Shown here: in pieces, positions 52,173 to 64,000 of the stretch
How positions within the stretch are numbered: the first letter of the stretch is position 1
How the letters are laid out: each line of letters starts with the position of its first letter
Assembly: GCA_029242935.1 (NCBI GenBank)
Contig: JAQWSX010000042.1
Coordinates: 1 to 64,000 of the forward strand
Length of the DNA stretch: 64,000 nt
Source of the DNA: Akkermansiaceae bacterium
GTDB taxonomy: Bacteria > Verrucomicrobiota > Verrucomicrobiia > Verrucomicrobiales > Akkermansiaceae
Direction: 5' to 3'
Program-made: the position numbers and the translations under genes
Notes under the pieces: generated by a model
Database searches by the model: none
What the model saw: only the letters and a program-made list of their open reading frames with translations
Told to the model about the DNA's origin: nothing

Positions 52173-53591
52173 GTGGCTAGAACATACCTTGATGACGATT
52201 TCCTTCTCTTCTCTGAGACAGCCCGCAAGCTTTTTCACGATACGGCGAAGGATCTGCCAATTATCGACTATCACACCCATCTTCCGCCAGATGAGGTGGC
52301 CACGAACCAACGGTGGGAGAACATCACCGATCTCTGGCTTGGTCACGACCACTACAAGTGGCGAGCCATGCGCGCCAACGGGATTCCAGAGTCCCACATC
52401 ACCGGAAATGCTTCTCCCAAAGAGAAATTCCGTGCCTGGGCCGACACTATTCCGAACACCCTTCGCAATCCGCTCTACGACTGGACTCACCTCGAGCTCC
52501 GTCGCTGTTTCGGCATTAACACCCTCTTGAGTCCGGAAACGGCAGACGAAATTTGGGAAGGCTGTAACGAACGCCTCACAGACAAGGATTTCTCCGCCCA
52601 AGGTCTCCTTCGCAAATTCCGAGTCGATGCTGTCGGCACCACCGATGACCCCACCGACAACCTTTCCCACCACGTAGCCGCAAATGCCTCAGATTGCCCT
52701 ACCAAGATCTATCCAACCTTCCGGCCTGACAAAGCATTCTTCGTTGACCGTCCTTCTCTCCTAAACCCGTGGCTCGACCAGCTTGGCAAAAACATTATCA
52801 CCTTCGCTGATCTTCTTTCGGCGTTGAAGGCTCGTCAGGATTATTTCCACGAAAAAGGCTGTCGCTTGACCGACCACGGGATGCGCTATGCTTTGTCCAA
52901 TCCATGCCACGAAAGTGAAGCAGATCAAATTCTCGCCAAAGTTCGTGAAGGAAAAGCCGCCAACCCTAAAGAGACCGATGCCTTCGGCGCGCTTATCATG
53001 TATCACGTGGGTCAGTGGGTTTCAGAAAAAAATTGGACGATGCAACTCCATCTGGGACCAAGGCGCAATCCGAACACAAGACTCTTTGATAAACTAGGTC
53101 CCGATTCAGGATTTGATACGATTGGAGATTGGCCTCAGGGCGAGGCTCTTCTGTCCTTCCTTGATTCCCTTAGCAAACTCAACAAGCTGCCAAAGACTAT
53201 CATTTATAACCTTAATCCACGCGATAATGCCGTCCTCGCTGCCGCCTGCGGCTCTTTTCAGGAGGCCCCAATCCGTGGCAAAGTCCAATTCGGATCCGGA
53301 TGGTGGTTCAACGACACCCTCCAGGGAATGGAGTCCCAGATCAACACGCTTTCGGCGATTGGCCTACTTTCCCACTTTGTTGGAATGCTCACCGATTCGA
53401 GATCTTTTCTGTCCTTTCCAAGGCACGAATACTTCCGCCGTTTACTTTGCAATCTCGTCGGACAAGACGTGGAAGACGGCAAGCTACCAAACGATGACCG
53501 GCTCATCAGCAAGATGATTGGCAATATCTGCTACCATAACGCTGAAGCCTACTTCGAGCTCCCCCATCATTCCGAAGATCTCCTAGCCTAA
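52173..53591 (+). CDS. uxaC: Glucuronate isomerase
   Basis: FLLFSETARKLFHDTAKDLPIIDYHTHLPPDEVA; VGTTDDPTDNL; LGPRRNPNTRLFDKLGPDSGFDTIGD; MLTDSRSFLSFPRHEYFRR. GTG start. Confidence 0.95.
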   Translation: MARTYLDDDFLLFSETARKLFHDTAKDLPIIDYHTHLPPDEVATNQRWENITDLWLGHDHYKWRAMRANGIPESHITGNASPKEKFRAWADTIPNTLRNPLYDWTHLELRRCFGINTLLSPETADEIWEGCNERLTDKDFSAQGLLRKFRVDAVGTTDDPTDNLSHHVAANASDCPTKIYPTFRPDKAFFVDRPSLLNPWLDQLGKNIITFADLLSALKARQDYFHEKGCRLTDHGMRYALSNPCHESEADQILAKVREGKAANPKETDAFGALIMYHVGQWVSEKNWTMQLHLGPRRNPNTRLFDKLGPDSGFDTIGDWPQGEALLSFLDSLSKLNKLPKTIIYNLNPRDNAVLAAACGSFQEAPIRGKVQFGSGWWFNDTLQGMESQINTLSAIGLLSHFVGMLTDSRSFLSFPRHEYFRRLLCNLVGQDVEDGKLPNDDRLISKMIGNICYHNAEAYFELPHHSEDLLA

Positions 53592-53756
53592 AAACCCTCG
53601 GTGACGGGCGAATTTCAGCCTCGTTTTTTTCCGAAAAGCACGGTCGCTCTTTTGGGAGACGATGTTACTCTCTACAGGTTGCAAATTTTGAGTAAACTCG
53701 CTGCTCAACTTCGCTTCCCCGGTGACACGACGAAGTCTTCTGATTGATTGAACCCA

Positions 53757-54791
53757 ATGCTTGATATTACCTTTGCCAATCCCCACTTCCTGTGGCTCCT
53801 CATCCCTCTTATCGGGGGGCTTGTTTGGCGTTGGTTCAGTCTTCCTGCTTCTATTGCTGTATCTTCAACCGACCACTACACCAAGGCTGCGCCGAGGAAG
53901 CATTTCGCCCCCCGACACCTGCTTCTCTTGCTAGAGGTTTTCGCTGCCGCAGCCTTCATTTTTGCACTCGCTCGTCCCCAGTCGGATATGGAAATCGTCC
54001 CAGTGACCAAGGAAGGTACCGATATCATGCTGGTACTCGATTACTCGAACAGTATGGATGCTTTCGATCCGCCGTCTGGCATGGATGACTCCGCAGTCAG
54101 AAAAGGCATCGCCCAAGGGAGGATAAAAGACCGCCTGGGCGTCGCAAAAGATCAGATCAACCGCTTCGTTTCGCGACGTTCAGGCGACCGTATTGGCCTC
54201 GTCATTTTTGGCCACCTTGGCAACCTCGCGGTCGACCCAACTATCGACCACGATCACCTCATTGGCTACGTCGATCAACTCGAGAACTCCCTTCTTTCCC
54301 AAAGCGAGCGTGGCACAAATATCGCCGGCGGAATCAGTCAGGGCATCATCGCCTTGAAGGACTACAATGAAACCCGACGCACTATCGTTCTAATCACCGA
54401 TGGTGATCACACTGTTCCTGATCCTGTTTACACTCCAGTCACAGCAGCGGAAGCAGCCAAAAAACAAGACATCACCATTCACACAGTCGGCATTGGAAGT
54501 GACGATCCCTTTCTCCTCGGACCACTCTCACGCATGGGCGCGACAATCCGATTCGACACGCGGAACCTCGAAAAAATAGCATCAATCACCGGCGGTCAAT
54601 TTTTTCGAGCTAAGGATAACAAAGGTTTTGAAGACGTCATGGATACCATCGATTCACTTGAGAAGACCTCAAAACAACGTCCAGCCCTAATTTATCAGCG
54701 CGATCTCTACCCCACACTTTTGATAGGTGGAATCGCTGCCCTCGGCCTTGCCATTCTTCTTCGTCACACCCTTCTTCGCGAAATCTCCTAG
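53757..54791 (+). CDS. VWA-domain membrane protein, BatA-like
   Basis: MIDAS LVLDYSNSMDAF, SGDRIGLVIFGHLGNLAVDPTIDH, TIVLITDGDHT; TM helices at both ends. Start ATG 53757 preferred over TTG 53748. Confidence 0.88.
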   Translation: MLDITFANPHFLWLLIPLIGGLVWRWFSLPASIAVSSTDHYTKAAPRKHFAPRHLLLLLEVFAAAAFIFALARPQSDMEIVPVTKEGTDIMLVLDYSNSMDAFDPPSGMDDSAVRKGIAQGRIKDRLGVAKDQINRFVSRRSGDRIGLVIFGHLGNLAVDPTIDHDHLIGYVDQLENSLLSQSERGTNIAGGISQGIIALKDYNETRRTIVLITDGDHTVPDPVYTPVTAAEAAKKQDITIHTVGIGSDDPFLLGPLSRMGATIRFDTRNLEKIASITGGQFFRAKDNKGFEDVMDTIDSLEKTSKQRPALIYQRDLYPTLLIGGIAALGLAILLRHTLLREIS

Positions 54792-54805
54792 GCTTTATAA
54801 TCAAG

Positions 54806-57358
54806 ATGGAATTCCTCGCTCTCAAAAATCTCTTCTGGGTTCTACCCGTCGTAATCCTGTCGCTTGGTATCGCTGCTTGGTCTTACCATCAGCGGAAGAA
54901 AGCAATCTCCCTTCTTACCCAAAACTCTGGACACTGTAATCTGAAGTCAAATGCCTCTCCGGTCCGCCGGCGGATCCTCGGAATCGTTCTTCTCACTTCT
55001 CTCTTACTTGCCGGAGTCTCCGTCCTCCGCCCGATCAGCGGGTTCGTCAGAACTGAGTTCAAACGCCCTTCAAAAAATTTGGTTGTCCTATTCGATATTT
55101 CCAACTCGATGACAGCAACAGACACCGAAGGAATTAGTCGGAACGATGCCGCAAAACTTCTCTTACGTGAATTCATCAATTCTCGTCCGACAGATCGGAT
55201 CGGCCTTATCTCTTTCGCAGGCGATACCTTTATCGAGACGCCTGTCACCCGGAGCCGCGCTACTCTCCTCAAACGCGTTAATCAAATCCAACCCGGTGAC
55301 TTCCTAGTTCCCGGCACCGACATCACCGCTGCTCTTGAGGAAGCTCAAAATCTCCTCACCGAAGAACCCCCTCCGGGATCAGCGATTATTGTTCTCTCCG
55401 ATGGAGATAACGTCACCGGAGGAGATCCAGAAACCGTCCTCAGGCAACTTAAGAAATCCAAAGTGCCCATTATCGCGGTTGCCTTTGGAAAGGACGGCGT
55501 GCCAGCCAACGTGCCCAGAACCGAAATGTTCACACAGTCTAACCACAATACGGTCAAGCAACTCTCCGGGTCAACCAATGGACTATTTCTTAGCGCTTCA
55601 CCGAAGGAAGTTGAGGCTCAAATTACCCAACTCAACACCCGTGTCGACACTATCGAGTTGAATGGTGAAAATATCGCCGGTGAACTTTACGAACGACCCC
55701 AGGATATTTTTGTCTGGCCTCTTACCTTATCTCTTATCTGTCTCATGATCCACATCTTGCTCCCCCTTAGAACCAAAAACTGGCATCCGCTAACAACCGC
55801 AATCGCCTTCCTTCTTTCCATAGCTCCAAGCCTTCCCGGCGAAGAGGTCGATTCTTACGACGAAGCACTAGAGGTTGCCAAGGAAGAAGCATTACCCGTC
55901 ATGGTGATCTTCACCGGATCCGATTGGTCAAAACTCTCAATCACATTCGAACAGGAAATCCTCACGCACCAAATTTTCAAACAATGGGCAGAGACCAAAA
56001 TTGTCTGGACGCTCATCGACCTTCCCCGTGTTGGACTCACCGATGTGGAGCGGCGCGCTCGACGTACTCTCATGAAGGAACTAGGGGTCGAAACCTTTCC
56101 GATGGCTGTCTTTTTGGACGTGAACAAGAACCCGATGGGCTCTCTCACCCACGATCCCAAAGGACCCAGTTCTTGGATCGAGCGCGCCAATGCCATCTTG
56201 AAGGGTGAAATTGCGGCCGCCGACACCGCCGCTTCAACAGATTACCTTCCAGAAGAAATTCGCAAAAGCCTTGAAGACCCTACTCTCACCGAGACCCAGC
56301 GAAGTATCCGCTTTTACAACAAAGCTCTGGAGCTTGAAAAAGCTGAGCCTGAACTCACCTTGAAATCTGAAGACCGCTTTAAACTGCTGCTTGATCTTTA
56401 CAGCAAGGCTGCCGATGCCGCACCGATCCTCCGAAACGATTTAAAGTTCGCCGCACTTCATAAGCGAGGGATCCTTCATCATCGGAAGGGTCAATCTCGC
56501 GTCCCAAAATCCGAACAGGAAATCATGATGATGGCGATGCAGGAACGTTCTGATCCGGTAAAGCTTCTAAAGCGTGCCAAAAGTTCATTCAAAAATGCTC
56601 TCGAAATTTATAGAAGTGCCGCCCCCCTCAAACCCGCAGACGAAGAACTCAGCGACAACCTCGCTCTTGTTTACAAAAATATCTCGCGGGTCCAGGCCTA
56701 CCTTGATTTCCTCGCAGCCTTCCAAGCTGCCATCGAGGACACCCAAAACGCCCTCAATCAGGAAAATCGATTCGTCAAAAGCCTTGAAAGGGAAGTCAAC
56801 ACTCTCACCGAGGTAAACAAGAAGGCAATCGAAAGCGCCGCGAACTCGATTCAACATCTCATAGCGAGAGCGGAAGCAATCGAGGATTCGCCGACTATTC
56901 TACCAGAAGAGGGATTAAAGGATTACCGCCTGGCCGAGGAAGATATCGTTCTGGCGCCCTCCCCCCATCGCGAACGCCAGTTGGAGCAAGCAGCTCAACA
57001 CATCCAAGATGCCCTAGATCATTTGATCGATCCCCAGCAACAGCAGCAACCTCAACCAGCTCAAGGCGAGGGGGAAGGTGAGCCCCAAGAGGGCGAAAAA
57101 AGTGAAGGTGAGGAACCGGAAGGCGAAGGGGGCCGCCAAAACGAGCAAGAAAATCCGCAGGGTGATCGCCCCGAGGGCGATGAACCTACGGATGGAGATG
57201 AGGGCGAAGGCGATGAAAAAGGCAAGGGAGAGCCCGATGATAATGATCTCAAGAGAGCCGAAAAAGAGGGCGGTGATCTACGTTCGCGACTCCTGAGGAA
57301 ACAGCAGCAGGAATATCTCCGTAATGGTCGACGAGTTCCTCGAAGTAAGAACCACTAA
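54806..57358 (+). CDS. BatB-like VWA protein fused to thioredoxin-like domain and BatC-like Q/E/G-rich tail
   Basis: VLFDISNSMTATD MIDAS; TDRIGLISFAGDTFIETPVT; then LPVMVIFTGSDWSKLSITFEQEIL thioredoxin-like region without CxxC; C-terminal QQQQQPQPAQGEGEGEPQEGEKSEGEEPEGEGG. Confidence 0.85.
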   Translation: MEFLALKNLFWVLPVVILSLGIAAWSYHQRKKAISLLTQNSGHCNLKSNASPVRRRILGIVLLTSLLLAGVSVLRPISGFVRTEFKRPSKNLVVLFDISNSMTATDTEGISRNDAAKLLLREFINSRPTDRIGLISFAGDTFIETPVTRSRATLLKRVNQIQPGDFLVPGTDITAALEEAQNLLTEEPPPGSAIIVLSDGDNVTGGDPETVLRQLKKSKVPIIAVAFGKDGVPANVPRTEMFTQSNHNTVKQLSGSTNGLFLSASPKEVEAQITQLNTRVDTIELNGENIAGELYERPQDIFVWPLTLSLICLMIHILLPLRTKNWHPLTTAIAFLLSIAPSLPGEEVDSYDEALEVAKEEALPVMVIFTGSDWSKLSITFEQEILTHQIFKQWAETKIVWTLIDLPRVGLTDVERRARRTLMKELGVETFPMAVFLDVNKNPMGSLTHDPKGPSSWIERANAILKGEIAAADTAASTDYLPEEIRKSLEDPTLTETQRSIRFYNKALELEKAEPELTLKSEDRFKLLLDLYSKAADAAPILRNDLKFAALHKRGILHHRKGQSRVPKSEQEIMMMAMQERSDPVKLLKRAKSSFKNALEIYRSAAPLKPADEELSDNLALVYKNISRVQAYLDFLAAFQAAIEDTQNALNQENRFVKSLEREVNTLTEVNKKAIESAANSIQHLIARAEAIEDSPTILPEEGLKDYRLAEEDIVLAPSPHRERQLEQAAQHIQDALDHLIDPQQQQQPQPAQGEGEGEPQEGEKSEGEEPEGEGGRQNEQENPQGDRPEGDEPTDGDEGEGDEKGKGEPDDNDLKRAEKEGGDLRSRLLRKQQQEYLRNGRRVPRSKNH

Positions 57359-57372
57359 TTTTCGAAACTAAA

Positions 57373-59673
57373 ATGTTCCGACTCGTTCTCATCTTCAGTG
57401 TCCTATCGGCAATGCCTTCCTGGGCACAGGACTACCGCGTTTCCAGGCCGCCAAATATCATCACTGAGGATCGGATTGAATCCATCAGCATCGTGACCAG
57501 AGCTGAAATGGAACTAGGCAAACTTCCCAAACATCCAAAAATCACTTGGCTCGGATACTCAAGTATTCGGCTTCCCAATGACGCCTATGGCAACATGCAG
57601 ACCGACAACCGAATTTCATTCGTCGCGACCTCACCAGGCTTGATCGATTTCCCTCCAATCCCGATCGTGCTTGAAAATAAGGAATTTTTTATTCGGATTG
57701 GAGAGATCAAGGTGACAGAAAACACCACATCAAAGACCGAAACCCGGTTAGAGATTCTCTGGAATGGAAGTGCTCAGATTCCAAGGCAGGTTCATTTGGG
57801 CGAAGCTGTGGAAGTTCAGTTTATCGAGCTTGTTGAAAACAAGAACACTAGGTTCCGAGCAGGTTCTTATTTCTCCCAGCCCTCGAATCGGGTCGTTGGA
57901 GCTCAGTGGCATCAATACCTACGCTACTCAGGACGTAAACCTGTTCCCAGTGACTACTTTTACACCTATTCCCAAGGCGGATTCTTCAGTCGCTATGGAA
58001 GTCCTGAAAACTACAGCGAAATGGAACAAGAAATCGAGGGCATCGATTACAACCTCCGCGCCTACAAGGCCCGTTTGTATTTCACCAAGGTTGGAAAATC
58101 GACCGGACACCTTAGCGCCACTCTTGGGATTTCGCGGATTCGCTCCAGACATAGGACTCATGTTATTCCGTTCGAAATCGAAGTGCTTCCAGTCCCTCCA
58201 ATCCCAAACAATCAGGCGATCGATTCAGGCCTTGTGGGAGACTGGGAATTTCAAATCGATTACCGCCCTCTTCAGCCAACCGCCTCTCGCCCGTTCATTA
58301 TCGACATCTCAATCACCGGTCAGGGGAACCCAAATCTTCGGAATGACTTTGATTTCTCAAGCCAAGGCTTCCCATCAGTCGAGAGCGATCTCTATCCAAA
58401 AGTTGGCAGTAACTACGATTTCTGGGAGGGAGACTTTACTCAGACTCTTCTCCCAACCGGCAAAGTAGGGACCCTACCCGCAATAACCCTCGCCTCTTTC
58501 GACACGGTTGACGATAGATGGCGTTTCCACAAAATCACACCAACCCTGAACCTTCCAGGAACTAGTGATATTACCGCATCAATGACCCCTAGAAAGGACG
58601 CTGGCAGCATCACCACACGTCCGGTTTTACTCAATCTTCCGGTGTCTACCTTTGGAGCCTTCGCTCTTGCCCCTTTTCTACCTTTTCTGTTTGGCCTAGC
58701 CAAGAAACGGCTGGACGCGCGCGATCCAGGGAAGAAAGACCGCGAACGAACCCTAAAACGTCTTATTATAAGCTTTAAATCAGGAAAAGGAACAGCCGAG
58801 GAAATTGACAACGATTTACTGCCAATTCTTCGACACAAACTCCGACTCCCTCCGGGATCAACCGTGAGAGAGATTGCCAGCGCACTTGATGATCAAGCAC
58901 TCGCCGCAAGACTTAAAACCCATGCCGAAATCTCCTTCTCAAGTCAGGAACAGGCGTTCGATTTCATTGCGTTGGGGCGCGAGCTCACCAAGATTTCGCT
59001 CCTGCTGCTTATCACCATTTCATCACTAAAAGGTTCGACCCTACAGGAAGCCAACCAAGCGTTTAACGAGGCCAATTTCAATAGAGCAATCGATATCTAT
59101 AATGGCCTGATCAAGGAGAGTCCTGACCATGGTTCCCTGCGCTACAACCTTGCTCAAGCACACCTTTCAGCAAATGACCCCGCTCGGGCACGAGCATCCT
59201 GCCACACCGCACTTTTACTTGATCCGCTGGACCAAGAAGCGCGAGACTTGATGAGTGACATTCGTGAGCGCCAAGGTGACCTAACAGTTTCCCGGAACCG
59301 GTTTCTCGACCTTCGCCCGGATCAATGGGTCGTTGTAGCCGCCGTGATTTGGGTTATCACCTATTTGTTTTTTGGAATCTGCAAATTTGTTTCACTCCCC
59401 CGCTGGCCTGGTTTCGCCCTCGCAATCATCGCTTTTCTCTTTTTGGGGACCGCCGCTTGGCGACAGAGTCAACATTACTCTCCCAATCAATACATGGTCC
59501 TTGCCGACGAACTTCCTCGCGAGCCCAAAGCGGGCACACCCGACTGGAATTATCCCGCTCTTAGGGCGGGTCAAATCGTTCAAATTTCCGAAGTCAATGA
59601 AACCCATGCCCTCGTTCGATCATCCGAAAGCACCTTTTGGCTTCCTATAAATGAACTTCAACAAGTCTGGTAA
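57373..59673 (+). CDS. BatD-like protein with C-terminal TPR/BatE-like region
   Basis: N-terminal BatD-like beta domains (LGEAVEVQFIELVEN, PFIIDISITGQGNPNL), TM, then TPR ANQAFNEANFNRAIDIYNGLIKESPDHGSLRYNLAQAHL and C-terminal SH3-like segment. Confidence 0.8.
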   Translation: MFRLVLIFSVLSAMPSWAQDYRVSRPPNIITEDRIESISIVTRAEMELGKLPKHPKITWLGYSSIRLPNDAYGNMQTDNRISFVATSPGLIDFPPIPIVLENKEFFIRIGEIKVTENTTSKTETRLEILWNGSAQIPRQVHLGEAVEVQFIELVENKNTRFRAGSYFSQPSNRVVGAQWHQYLRYSGRKPVPSDYFYTYSQGGFFSRYGSPENYSEMEQEIEGIDYNLRAYKARLYFTKVGKSTGHLSATLGISRIRSRHRTHVIPFEIEVLPVPPIPNNQAIDSGLVGDWEFQIDYRPLQPTASRPFIIDISITGQGNPNLRNDFDFSSQGFPSVESDLYPKVGSNYDFWEGDFTQTLLPTGKVGTLPAITLASFDTVDDRWRFHKITPTLNLPGTSDITASMTPRKDAGSITTRPVLLNLPVSTFGAFALAPFLPFLFGLAKKRLDARDPGKKDRERTLKRLIISFKSGKGTAEEIDNDLLPILRHKLRLPPGSTVREIASALDDQALAARLKTHAEISFSSQEQAFDFIALGRELTKISLLLLITISSLKGSTLQEANQAFNEANFNRAIDIYNGLIKESPDHGSLRYNLAQAHLSANDPARARASCHTALLLDPLDQEARDLMSDIRERQGDLTVSRNRFLDLRPDQWVVVAAVIWVITYLFFGICKFVSLPRWPGFALAIIAFLFLGTAAWRQSQHYSPNQYMVLADELPREPKAGTPDWNYPALRAGQIVQISEVNETHALVRSSESTFWLPINELQQVW

Positions 59674-61347
59674 ATGAAATCCATTCTCATTGCTGCCGCT
59701 CTGGCTTCATTCCTTCCCGCTCAAACAGTCACCTGGACCAAGGAAAACGAAATCTTTGTGCAAGAAAGCACGACTGTATTTGCTTCGAAACTCTCGAAAC
59801 AAATGGTCATCGTTGGACGACTTGGTTTATCTGAGACCAGACCAGCTGTCATCGTAAGCAAGGACGGCCACATCCTGTCTCCATTCCTGCCAAGCATTGA
59901 CGGAGAGGACGCATCCTATCTTCTTTATCGGCTTGATGGCTCTCGTATCGAGCTCGAAACAGTGGCTGAGAATGCAAAACACTTTGTTTCTTTGCTCAAG
60001 ATTAAGGAACCAGAACCCGACCTCGTTCCTATCCGGATTTCAAAAATTATCGATCATACTGTGATCTTACCCACAACAGCCCCTATCGCTTCAACCGGAG
60101 AGCCTTCCAGCCTCTTCGTAGATCATCTCGAGTTCGCTCCTCCAGAGAAAGCTAAAGCAATTCGACTGGATAGTGTGCTTCACCTCCTTGGAACTCCAGT
60201 TTTTGACCTCTCTGGTGCTTTGATCGCGACCACTTTAAAAGCTCGTGAAACCAACACTCCAGCCCTCATGATTCCATGGCTAATTGCCGACTTTCCGGAA
60301 CTTGATGCCATCCTTGCCGATGAAACTGTTTCGGATCTCGACAAACTGCCACTGGCCCCAAAGGCCACCATAGAAGAGGCTCGGGAAATGATTGTCTCGC
60401 CCATCACTCGAGCAAGACAGCGTTTCATCCAGAGGTCACACCCTAATCCACTGCCCTGTGTCCTTGTCTCAAACGAAGGGGCGCAAGCAACGCACTCGGT
60501 CATTGGCACTATCATTCACTCGGAGGGGCTCATCCTCACCAAAGCCAGTGATCTTGGCCCCTCCCTTGTGGTTCGTTACAACGGAAAAAACTATCCGGCT
60601 GTTCTTCTTTCAACTGACGAGGAGACCGATCTTGCTTTGGTTGGCATTCAAGAATTAGAAATGCCGGTCGTTCATTGGAGTGATGAACTTCCCGCCACCG
60701 GCTCAGTTGTGGCCTCTCCTATATTACTTCAGGAATCCACAGATGAAATGGTGGCAGAAGCAACCTCCTATGTTGGAATTTTCAGCCACGAACTCTTAAA
60801 GGGAATTCCTTCCGTGCATGCAACAAGTCAAGTCACAAGTCTGGGCCTCACCACCGAACAACTTGACTCAGGATTAAAGATCGCCGCAATCAAGCCCGAT
60901 ACTCCTGCCTTCGAATCCGGAATCTCGCCCGGAGACCTCATTAAAAAGATAAATAACCAACCTATTAATAACCGGGCCGATCTAACAGCATTTCTGGATC
61001 GTTGCGAGGTCGGAGAAAAAGTGACTGCCGAAATTGCGAGGGGTGGCTCGAGCAGGTCCCATGAGATTGAGCTCATCTCACCGCTCATGATTCCTCCGGC
61101 TACCGGAATCAATCCTTCAAACGGCGTCTCCATGATTCCCAGCATTAGGCGCGCACCTTTTCCCGATGTAATTGTGCACACGATCCCAATCAATGCATGG
61201 GATTGCGGATCCCCAGTCTTCGACATCAATGGACATGCTCTGGGAATTAATATTGCTGCAGTATCTCCAGCCCGAACGATTGCTCTTAAGCCTAAAGATA
61301 TTCGCGCAGCAATCGACCGCCTTCTCGCCAAGACCCGCGCATTTTAA
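59674..61347 (+). CDS. Trypsin-like/PDZ protein with two degenerate protease domains (probable pseudoprotease)
   Basis: Retains TDLALV and PDZ (GISPGDLIKKINNQPINNRADLTAFL) but has KAS in place of AAH and DCGSP in place of DSGGP. Confidence 0.75.
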   Translation: MKSILIAAALASFLPAQTVTWTKENEIFVQESTTVFASKLSKQMVIVGRLGLSETRPAVIVSKDGHILSPFLPSIDGEDASYLLYRLDGSRIELETVAENAKHFVSLLKIKEPEPDLVPIRISKIIDHTVILPTTAPIASTGEPSSLFVDHLEFAPPEKAKAIRLDSVLHLLGTPVFDLSGALIATTLKARETNTPALMIPWLIADFPELDAILADETVSDLDKLPLAPKATIEEAREMIVSPITRARQRFIQRSHPNPLPCVLVSNEGAQATHSVIGTIIHSEGLILTKASDLGPSLVVRYNGKNYPAVLLSTDEETDLALVGIQELEMPVVHWSDELPATGSVVASPILLQESTDEMVAEATSYVGIFSHELLKGIPSVHATSQVTSLGLTTEQLDSGLKIAAIKPDTPAFESGISPGDLIKKINNQPINNRADLTAFLDRCEVGEKVTAEIARGGSSRSHEIELISPLMIPPATGINPSNGVSMIPSIRRAPFPDVIVHTIPINAWDCGSPVFDINGHALGINIAAVSPARTIALKPKDIRAAIDRLLAKTRAF

Positions 61348-61352
61348 TCTCG

Positions 61353-63485
61353 ATGAAAACCTTACTTTTCTTACTCAGTCTTACTGGATCTGTCTTTTCC
61401 CAAACTCCAAAAGAATTGGATCGTATCGTTCGGAAACTTGCCCCGGACTTGGTGGATGCCACCGTTGCGATCATGCTCAACGGTGGCTCCGGTTCCGGAG
61501 TAATCGTAAGCCCACAGGGATTGGTAATTACGGCCGCGCACGTTACGAATGATCCTAAGAAGCAGATGAAAGTGCTCCTTTCCGACGGACGAGAACTTCC
61601 CGCTACCAGTCTTGGAGTTGATCACGAAACCGACGGCGCGCTCTTACAAATCAACGCACCCGGACCCTTCCCCTATCGGCCCTATGTCGTAACCAAAACC
61701 TATAAGATCAATGATTGGGTCATCGCGACCGGCCACCCTGGAGGCCCAGTCGTAGGACGTCCCGCCCCGATTCGGCTAGGCAGAATAAGCGAGGCCGGCA
61801 CCAAGAGTGGCTTCAGCGACGCCATCACCACCTCGGCGACGGTGATCTCAGGCGACTCTGGCGGTCCACTCTACAACCTCAAAGGGGAGGTCATCGGGAT
61901 TAACAGCAACATTAGTGGTTCCTGGCGAATCAACAAACACGTCCCTCTACCCTCCATTGTTGCGCGCTGGGATGCTCTAATCGCTGGCAAAGCATTTGGC
62001 CGCCCAATGCAACCTCAACAAGAAACCGGAGATCTTTTCAATGAACCCTACGCCGAGCTCAGGGAGCGTTTTGAAGAAGCACTCGCCAAGCATGGCAAAG
62101 ATGATCCAGAAGGCATGGCATTACTCAAAAAACCACGACTTTTGGATCCCCACCACATGCAGGAATTCCTAGATCGATGGGAGCCAAATCTCGAAGCACC
62201 AAAATCGCCTCGATATGGCTTTCAGCTGGAAGGTCGCGCTCCGCGGATTACCTCAATCATTCCCAACAGTCCAGCGGCCACAAGCGCCCTCGTGACTGGT
62301 GACGTAATCACTGCAGCCAACGGTCAACCTGTGACAAGAACTACAGACCTCGCTCTCATTCTTCAAAAAGGTGGTAAAGTCTTGCTTACGATCAACAGGG
62401 GAAAAACCGTGGAACTTAAGCCAATGGAGGTAACCGCCCGCAAGCACTTCCCCCAACCGGTTGCCGGCGTGATCGACATGATTGTCATCGAACCGACCGA
62501 AGGCGATAATAGGCCAGAACAAGTGCCTGCAAAAGACTTCACTGGAGCCTTGGAATTCATTCGGAAAAGATTTGCTAAATCTGTTATTCCGCTCAAAGAC
62601 GGACGAGGAAAGATGCTGGTATCAGCAACTGTGATTCACGAAATTGGCCAGCTCATCACCAAAGCTTCCGAAATTGAAGATGTCAAAGATCTAAGCGCAA
62701 CTGTAGATGGCCAGGACTATCCAGTGACTATCATGGCCGTTGACGAAGTTACAGACTTAGCTCTAATCAACATCAATTTGACAGGTTTGGTCCCAGTAAA
62801 TTGGGAGTCGAAGGAACCCATGGTCGGACAACTTCTCGTAACCCCGGGCGGCAGGACCCTTATGAGTGGAGTGATTACGCAACCAGGCCGTGATGCCCCT
62901 AAGAAGGGTTACGAGCTCAATCACACCTCCGAAAAACCATCAGCCTATCTGGGAGTCACCTTTTCTGTCGAAACCTCGGCACCGGTCATCGAGACTATTG
63001 AACTTGGAAGCCCTGCCGACAAAATCGGGATTCTCGAAGGAGACAAGATCATCGAATTTGAGGGGTTTTCCGTCACGACGATAGAAGCTCTTGCCGAGCT
63101 CCTCACAAAGCGTTCACCTGGTGATAAGGTTGAAATCCTGATTGAAAGAGGAAATGAAGAGGTGAAACTTAAACCAATTTTAGATGTTCGCCCCGCTACT
63201 GCAGCAGGATCTTTCGACCGACAAGCCTCCCAACGCGACAGTAGACTTAGCCAGCTCAGTGCGCGAGGCGGCGATCTGAGCCGACGCCGCGATGACTTCC
63301 CCTACGTTCTTTACCACGATCAACCCTTAAGCCCGCACTTAATCGGAACACCTTTGGTTGACCTTAAGGGCGAGGTCGTAGGAATCAATATCGCAAGGGC
63401 AATGAGACACCGCTCACTAGCAATCCCAACTTTGAACCTTGATAGCGTGATTGAAAAACTTCGGAGCGAAGCATTAAACAATTGA
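61353..63485 (+). CDS. Trypsin-like serine protease with PDZ domains; N-terminal domain active-looking, C-terminal domain degenerate
   Basis: GSGSGVIVSPQGLVITAAHVT, DHETDGALLQI, VISGDSGGPLYN; two PDZ regions; second domain has KAS and HLIGTPL instead of His and Ser motifs. Confidence 0.85.
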   Translation: MKTLLFLLSLTGSVFSQTPKELDRIVRKLAPDLVDATVAIMLNGGSGSGVIVSPQGLVITAAHVTNDPKKQMKVLLSDGRELPATSLGVDHETDGALLQINAPGPFPYRPYVVTKTYKINDWVIATGHPGGPVVGRPAPIRLGRISEAGTKSGFSDAITTSATVISGDSGGPLYNLKGEVIGINSNISGSWRINKHVPLPSIVARWDALIAGKAFGRPMQPQQETGDLFNEPYAELRERFEEALAKHGKDDPEGMALLKKPRLLDPHHMQEFLDRWEPNLEAPKSPRYGFQLEGRAPRITSIIPNSPAATSALVTGDVITAANGQPVTRTTDLALILQKGGKVLLTINRGKTVELKPMEVTARKHFPQPVAGVIDMIVIEPTEGDNRPEQVPAKDFTGALEFIRKRFAKSVIPLKDGRGKMLVSATVIHEIGQLITKASEIEDVKDLSATVDGQDYPVTIMAVDEVTDLALININLTGLVPVNWESKEPMVGQLLVTPGGRTLMSGVITQPGRDAPKKGYELNHTSEKPSAYLGVTFSVETSAPVIETIELGSPADKIGILEGDKIIEFEGFSVTTIEALAELLTKRSPGDKVEILIERGNEEVKLKPILDVRPATAAGSFDRQASQRDSRLSQLSARGGDLSRRRDDFPYVLYHDQPLSPHLIGTPLVDLKGEVVGINIARAMRHRSLAIPTLNLDSVIEKLRSEALNN

Positions 63486-63508: not shown

Positions 63509-64000
63509 TTAGTCATTCCCTTTACTGACTTTCGGCAGCGTGTTGCTCCATTCGTGGAGTTCATACCCCTTGCCAAGCCCTCCGATTTCATTCAGCAACT
63601 TGGCACATTCTGTTTTCCAAGATGAATAGTCCGGAGCCTTCCATGTCCCTGATGTACGGGGAAAAACGATATAGGTCACACCAAGACCGGATACCGGCGC
63701 ACTATATGGCGTAGATTTGGGATTGAGGGCTTTTGCCATTCGCAAACTGGCCTCTCCGATTTTAGAACTTGGTCCCCCGTCACCTACGATTGCGGGGTAA
63801 ACTTTTTTTTCGTGAATCACTGCCACATAATCACCGACATTTGGCCCCCATGCGCTCTCCCGGTCCTGCAAGATAAATACCGGAATCACGACAAAGGGAT
63901 CATATTCAGCGATCAAAAAACTCCGGCGTTTGAGATCTGCAATACCAGCCGACAGACGCTTCACTTCACTAGAGTTACCTTTTGCCTTTGCGGCGGCTAA
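63509..64000 (-). CDS. GH75 chitosanase-like protein, 5' end outside window
   Basis: DPFVVIPVFILQD...WGPNVGDYVAVIHEKKVYPAIVGDGGPSSKIGEASLRMAKAL resembles glycoside hydrolase family 75; frame open to the window edge. Confidence 0.6.
   Translation of the reverse strand, partial: LAAAKAKGNSSEVKRLSAGIADLKRRSFLIAEYDPFVVIPVFILQDRESAWGPNVGDYVAVIHEKKVYPAIVGDGGPSSKIGEASLRMAKALNPKSTPYSAPVSGLGVTYIVFPRTSGTWKAPDYSSWKTECAKLLNEIGGLGKGYELHEWSNTLPKVSKGND

Follow-up and report, generated by a model that had tools for sequence, protein, structure and literature searches.

The window analysed here comprises 64,000 nt from the start of a contig of 74 kb in a draft genome assembly. Five open reading frames lie at 53757-63485, all on the + strand, and their coordinates confirm the co-directional run that an earlier note had described, with intergenic gaps of 14, 14, 0 and 5 nt. 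They encode a BatA-like protein, a BatB fusion, a BatD/BatE-like fusion and two HtrA-like proteins, PDZ557 and PDZ710. Pfam recognized, in the same order, a BatA N-terminal domain with VWA; VWA with Thioredoxin_7; TPR; Trypsin_2 with PDZ; and two copies each of Trypsin_2 and PDZ. The left neighbour is uxaC (glucuronate isomerase; 52173-53591, + strand; PF02614, E 2e-190), which lies outside the system and is seen 5′ of batA only within the clade that has the split operon described below. A scan of the locus for promoters and terminators was uninformative, with 7 and 12 matches against 7.1 and 13.3 expected in shuffles.

The batA gene (53757-54791) starts at an ATG at 53757, and an alternative longer frame opens with a TTG at 53748. 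Its product is a VWA protein with three predicted transmembrane (TM) segments and an intact MIDAS motif, DxSxS..T..D (PF07584, PF13519 and PF00092, conservation and hydropathy). The batB gene (54806-57358) encodes a BatB-like VWA protein, also with TM segments and a MIDAS motif, which continues into a thioredoxin-like domain; its C-terminal region is helical and acidic and, by position, BatC-like. No TPR was matched in this fusion by Pfam. In both BatA and BatB, the N-terminal TM hairpin has a basic loop, an arrangement that weakly suggests an extracytosolic position for both VWA domains.

The thioredoxin-like domain of the BatB fusion (55850-56119; PF13899, Thioredoxin_7/DsbH-like) does not contain the CxxC redox motif. 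In its place, GSDWSxxS was found in 19 of 19 aligned orthologs and in the ortholog of G294, a genome of another genus in the same family. The domain is thus cysteine-less and presumably non-redox. The next gene (57373-59673) encodes a protein with a signal peptide, a beta-rich region, a TM segment, TPR matches, two further TM segments and a C-terminal domain. Pfam did not recognize BatD in the window protein, and in the ortholog of G078, a genome of another family, PF13584 scored 19.9 bits, below the cut-off of 24.1. The name BatD/E therefore rests on position and architecture.

The last two genes encode proteins of 557 and 710 amino acids, PDZ557 (59674-61347) and PDZ710 (61353-63485), and both open with signal-peptide-like sequences. 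Residues 25-356 of PDZ710 form a secreted protease domain followed by a PDZ domain, as in DegP, DegS and HhoA of the HtrA (Do) family. The protease domain (61425-61997; Trypsin_2, E 7e-33) has GSG and GDSGG motifs and an intact catalytic triad. The triad residues His63 (61539-61541), Asp94 (61632-61634) and Ser169 (61857-61859) are invariant in 15 orthologs. The PDZ domain (PDZ1, residues 282-356, 62196-62420) is C-terminal to the protease domain, as in DegS and HhoA. Unlike these enzymes, PDZ710 continues into a second, dead HtrA-like domain (62550-63482) with an internal PDZ domain (PDZ2, 62946-63170), and the whole-protein scores are far under the NCBIfam cut-offs. After removal of the internal PDZ, the C-terminal half aligned with the protein's own protease domain (hhalign 97.6%, E 4e-12).

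PDZ557 has no intact catalytic triad. Its first HtrA-like domain (59746-60318) lacks both the catalytic His and Ser and is a more distant dead copy (hhalign against the active domain, probability 73%, E 3e-5; the G294 ortholog matches Trypsin_2 at E 4e-20). Its second domain (60406-61344) is of the same kind as the C-terminal half of PDZ710 (E 2e-31). In these two C-terminal domains the His motif reads TKAS(E) and the Asp is retained. GDSGGP is replaced by WDCGSP in PDZ557, which puts Cys at the Ser position (Asn in G078), and by HLIGTP after TKASE in PDZ710. The only PDZ domain of PDZ557 (60835-61074; PF13180 at residues 389-467) is nested within its second dead domain by profile alignment, as is PDZ2 within that of PDZ710. 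Judged from sequence, only one of the four HtrA domains in the two proteins would be active; the other three would be dead, and a PDZ is nested in two of these. The earlier note spoke of a protease/pseudoprotease pair. This stands insofar as one protein carries the active HtrA domain and the other is wholly dead, but the active PDZ710 also bears a dead domain. The dead domains are maintained rather than decaying, since their dN/dS of 0.06-0.18 indicates purifying selection, as does the 0.02-0.05 of the active domain.

To place the nested PDZ, we built a profile from six stand-alone pseudoproteases and aligned it to solved HtrA structures. Positions 58-161 of the profile aligned with HtrA residues 97-200 and positions 274-328 with residues 205-264, whereas positions 178-239 matched the C-terminal PDZ (296-357) of 22kg. 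The insertion point falls between residues 164 and 171 of DegQ (4a8a), a region that we take to be loop L3. In DegS and DegP, loop L3 senses the PDZ domain. The six pseudoproteases share TKASE and a motif resembling RRxxFPxxxQHD. AlphaFold models of both window proteases, with 6-7 close sequences in the alignment, had pLDDT of 29 and 35 and were useless. Because these models failed, the predicted nesting of PDZ inside the protease fold of the C-terminal dead domains is based on the profiles.

Stand-alone gene pairs of protease and pseudoprotease, and pseudoproteases with a nested PDZ, are common in Verrucomicrobiae. In about 29 genomes an HtrA-like gene lies directly beside a single pseudoprotease gene of about 340 aa, as judged by eye from the match lists; such neighbours were inspected at L086, L125, L126, L127 and L129. 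Fused protease-pseudoprotease versions also occur away from bat (L087, L119). Given these pairs and fusions, the pair linked to bat appears to have arisen by recruitment of a fused copy and complete inactivation of a duplicate. No description of a PDZ inserted in an HtrA domain, or of bat with HtrA, was found in the open-access literature searched, a scope that leaves out most subscription papers.

We then compared the locus across genomes. In 25 of 26 same-genus genomes, batA, batB/Trx, batD/E, PDZ557 and PDZ710 lie side by side on one strand, as far as the contigs reach; this count includes G015 and G023, where the position of PDZ557 was taken from the spacing. In the exception, G005, the batD/E match stops early at an apparent contig end and another contig starts inside PDZ557. 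The whole operon is also present in G294 and in G078, where the copy is cut by a contig end inside PDZ710. For PDZ710, all 26 same-genus relatives gave matches over the length of the protein or large parts of it; in other relatives, G078 excepted, the match covered mainly the trypsin domain. Within the order (387 genomes), PDZ557 matches of this extent came from 24 genomes of the same genus (the window's own included), from G294 and from G078. No further full-length PDZ557 was found in the thinly sampled class and phylum sets of about 390 genomes each. Across 116 relatives, every genome with a strong specific BatD/E match also has a long PDZ710 match, and every genome that lacks the first lacks the second.

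In most relatives, batD/E and PDZ557 are separated by 0-1 nt. Gene order, strand and spacing are preserved down to about 30-50% protein identity, and this conservation rules out a chance neighbourhood. The earlier note had joined the bat genes to the two proteases, and among close relatives we found none in which the protease genes were unlinked from bat. Since the operon ties Bat to a protease and its catalytically dead look-alike throughout this genus of Akkermansiaceae, the results suggest that the Bat parts and the HtrA pair work together. The restriction of the operon to certain lineages means that the protease is dispensable for Bat function in general.

Other observations were made on the same genomes. 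The G078 copy, from another family, is nearer to the genus copies than the G294 copy from the same family, suggesting that the isolated copies outside the genus arose by horizontal transfer or differential loss. In UBA5688 (G016), PDZ710 is disrupted: some 320 additional bases and a shift of frame lie between residues 374 and 410 (L034:17225-19827, the L084 locus), and the gene may be a pseudogene or the break an assembly error. In the window's genome (G000), DUF58/MoxR/VWA clusters were found at L056-L060 and L065 (contigs C129, C90, C78, C198, C181 and C146), and HtrA-like genes are tied only to the bat cluster under study. Four other moxR/DUF58/VWA clusters of this genome have no HtrA-like gene adjoining.

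In most relatives with long enough contigs, the gene order is moxR, DUF58, a DUF4381-like gene, batA, batB/Trx, batD/E, pseudoprotease and protease. The DUF4381-like gene encodes a 325-aa protein with a score under the curated cut-off. moxR and DUF58 are contiguous with the bat genes, and moxR, DUF58 and the 325-aa gene run into batA, in 11 same-genus genomes (G001, G002, G004, G006, G009, G010, G012, G013, G018, G022 and G026) and in G078 and G294. In the window neither moxR nor a separate DUF58 gene adjoins the bat genes, as had been noted earlier, and both were found with the 325-aa gene on contig C129 of the same genome (L056, 7786-10646, minus strand). The C129 moxR and DUF58 are 76-92% identical to those of the intact operons in the genus.

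In eight other genomes (G003, G011, G014, G016, G019, G020, G021 and G025), batA likewise follows uxaC or a gene just beyond it. The 325-aa gene, where found in these genomes, is on another contig, and the same is true in G023. In a rerooted tree of the five proteins the split genomes group together, at a node without a printed support value. The lack of moxR and DUF58 beside bat is therefore a derived, lineage-specific split of the classical operon and not an atypical operon type. Co-transcription of moxR and DUF58 with the remaining genes is thus not obligatory.

Compared with the Bat operon of Bacteroides, Leptospira and Riemerella (moxR, DUF58 and batA-E), the operon here has MoxR, DUF58 and DUF4381-like proteins, MIDAS-bearing BatA and BatB and a BatD/E-like TPR protein, and its gene order is identical in most relatives. 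It differs in that batB is fused to the cysteine-less thioredoxin-like domain and a C-terminal region, batD is fused to batE, two HtrA-like genes are appended, and the window's clade has the operon in two halves. It is a new combination of known parts, a Bat operon and an HtrA protease, rather than a system of a new kind. MoxR proteins, which are AAA+ ATPases, work with VWA partners, and the function of Bat is unsettled (PMC3557215, PMC11834572).

Two HtrA systems offer partial parallels. Plant Deg7 (PD-PDZ-PDZ-PDia-PDZ-PDZ) also combines, in one polypeptide, several PDZ domains with two HtrA domains, of which one is active and the other degenerate, a likeness at the level of HtrA proteins in general, and its dead domain is involved in trimerisation (PMC3473262). 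However, its PDZ domains come after the dead domain and are not nested, and it is a chloroplast enzyme without Bat partners. In magnetosomes, the active HtrA protease MamE is encoded with a pseudoprotease relative, MamO, which activates it (PMC4794232). In contrast to the proteins here, MamO has a TauE transporter domain and binds metal, a nested PDZ is not reported, and the gene cluster is unrelated.

We propose, at about even chances, that the operon encodes an envelope quality-control module in which a MoxR-VWA complex acts together with an HtrA protease of its own, which pseudoprotease domains regulate. The window locus is the latter half of an eight-gene Bat operon, here split in two, that ends in PDZ557 and PDZ710. 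The membrane-anchored VWA proteins, acted on by MoxR, would form a complex in the envelope that collects or detects envelope proteins that are damaged or not assembled, and the secreted HtrA domain of PDZ710 would cleave these proteins. By analogy with Deg7 and MamO/MamE, the three dead HtrA domains, two of them PDZ-nested, may act as a scaffold, promote oligomerisation or sense peptides, and so gate the one active site. The VWA proteins and proteases would then share a compartment and touch, with control running from one to the other and envelope proteins as substrates. Direct contact would be possible only if the VWA domains are not cytosolic, a topology that we infer from the N-terminal hairpins. 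We think it unlikely that the Bat complex directly gates the envelope HtrA protease with the PDZ-nested pseudoprotease domains as coupling device, in which case cytosolic, ATP-driven MoxR would switch proteolysis in the ATP-free periplasm.

The linkage of bat and proteases fits equally well with regulatory proteolysis of Bat itself. PDZ710 would process or turn over BatA, BatB, BatD/E or the DUF4381-like protein, PDZ557 would protect or present them, and general quality control would play no part. MamE with MamO does cleave members of its own gene cluster (PMC4794232). We hold this to be rather doubtful, and sequence by itself does not tell it from the quality-control module. Another possibility, to which we give little weight, is co-regulation only: one promoter would serve Bat and the proteases, both of which would respond to the same envelope stress, and the two would be coupled neither physically nor biochemically. 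In some species bat operons are linked to stress (PMC11834572), and the stand-alone protease/pseudoprotease pairs elsewhere in the same genomes imply that a protease module can function without bat. However, the linkage persists to about 30% identity, the operon split left the proteases with batA-D/E, and the bat-linked copies differ from the stand-alone pairs.

The presence of a Thioredoxin_7/DsbH-like domain in the BatB fusion recalls the periplasmic redox or aerotolerance module first proposed for the bat genes of Bacteroides; here the thioredoxin domain would reduce oxidised proteins and the protease would remove the remainder. This is very improbable. Both active-site cysteines are serine in the 19 aligned orthologs and in G294, so these sequences lend no support to the redox role commonly assigned to bat, and bat deletion left oxidative-stress tolerance unaltered in Leptospira biflexa (PMC3557215). 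We give hardly any credence to an immunity-like MoxR-vWA conflict system with the trypsin-like peptidases as effectors, although MoxR-vWA ternary systems with such peptidases have been described (PMC7159879). A PADLOC scan and the gene content disfavour it: no PADLOC model was matched by the bat-side proteins or PDZ557, and PDZ710 gave weak trypsin-domain matches only; no VMAP, beta-propeller or EAD component is among the genes read at the locus. Moreover, the peptidases are secreted HtrA/PDZ proteins, and the locus is conserved genus-wide and not hypervariable.

The tie between Bat and a protease whose active site is intact, which holds across the genus and in genomes outside it, offers a direct way into Bat function: the substrates of PDZ710 S169A would be expected to show what the Bat complex deals with. 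The PDZ-nested pseudoproteases and the cysteine-less thioredoxin domain fused to BatB are two testable surprises, and the latter argues against a redox role at this operon.

Downstream, a gene resembling GH75 (fungal-type chitosanase) lies on the minus strand from 63509 to the window's end at 64000 and runs on to L064:4828. It is convergent to the operon and is kept in many same-genus genomes. Just beyond the window is selD (selenide, water dikinase; L064:4860-5966, contig C149 at about 64860-65966), which has an in-frame TGA in CGGUASK and probably encodes a selenocysteine-containing SelD. In several relatives (L034, L036-L039, L068-L071 and L073), the operon is followed by a 320-aa ORF of the selD kind.
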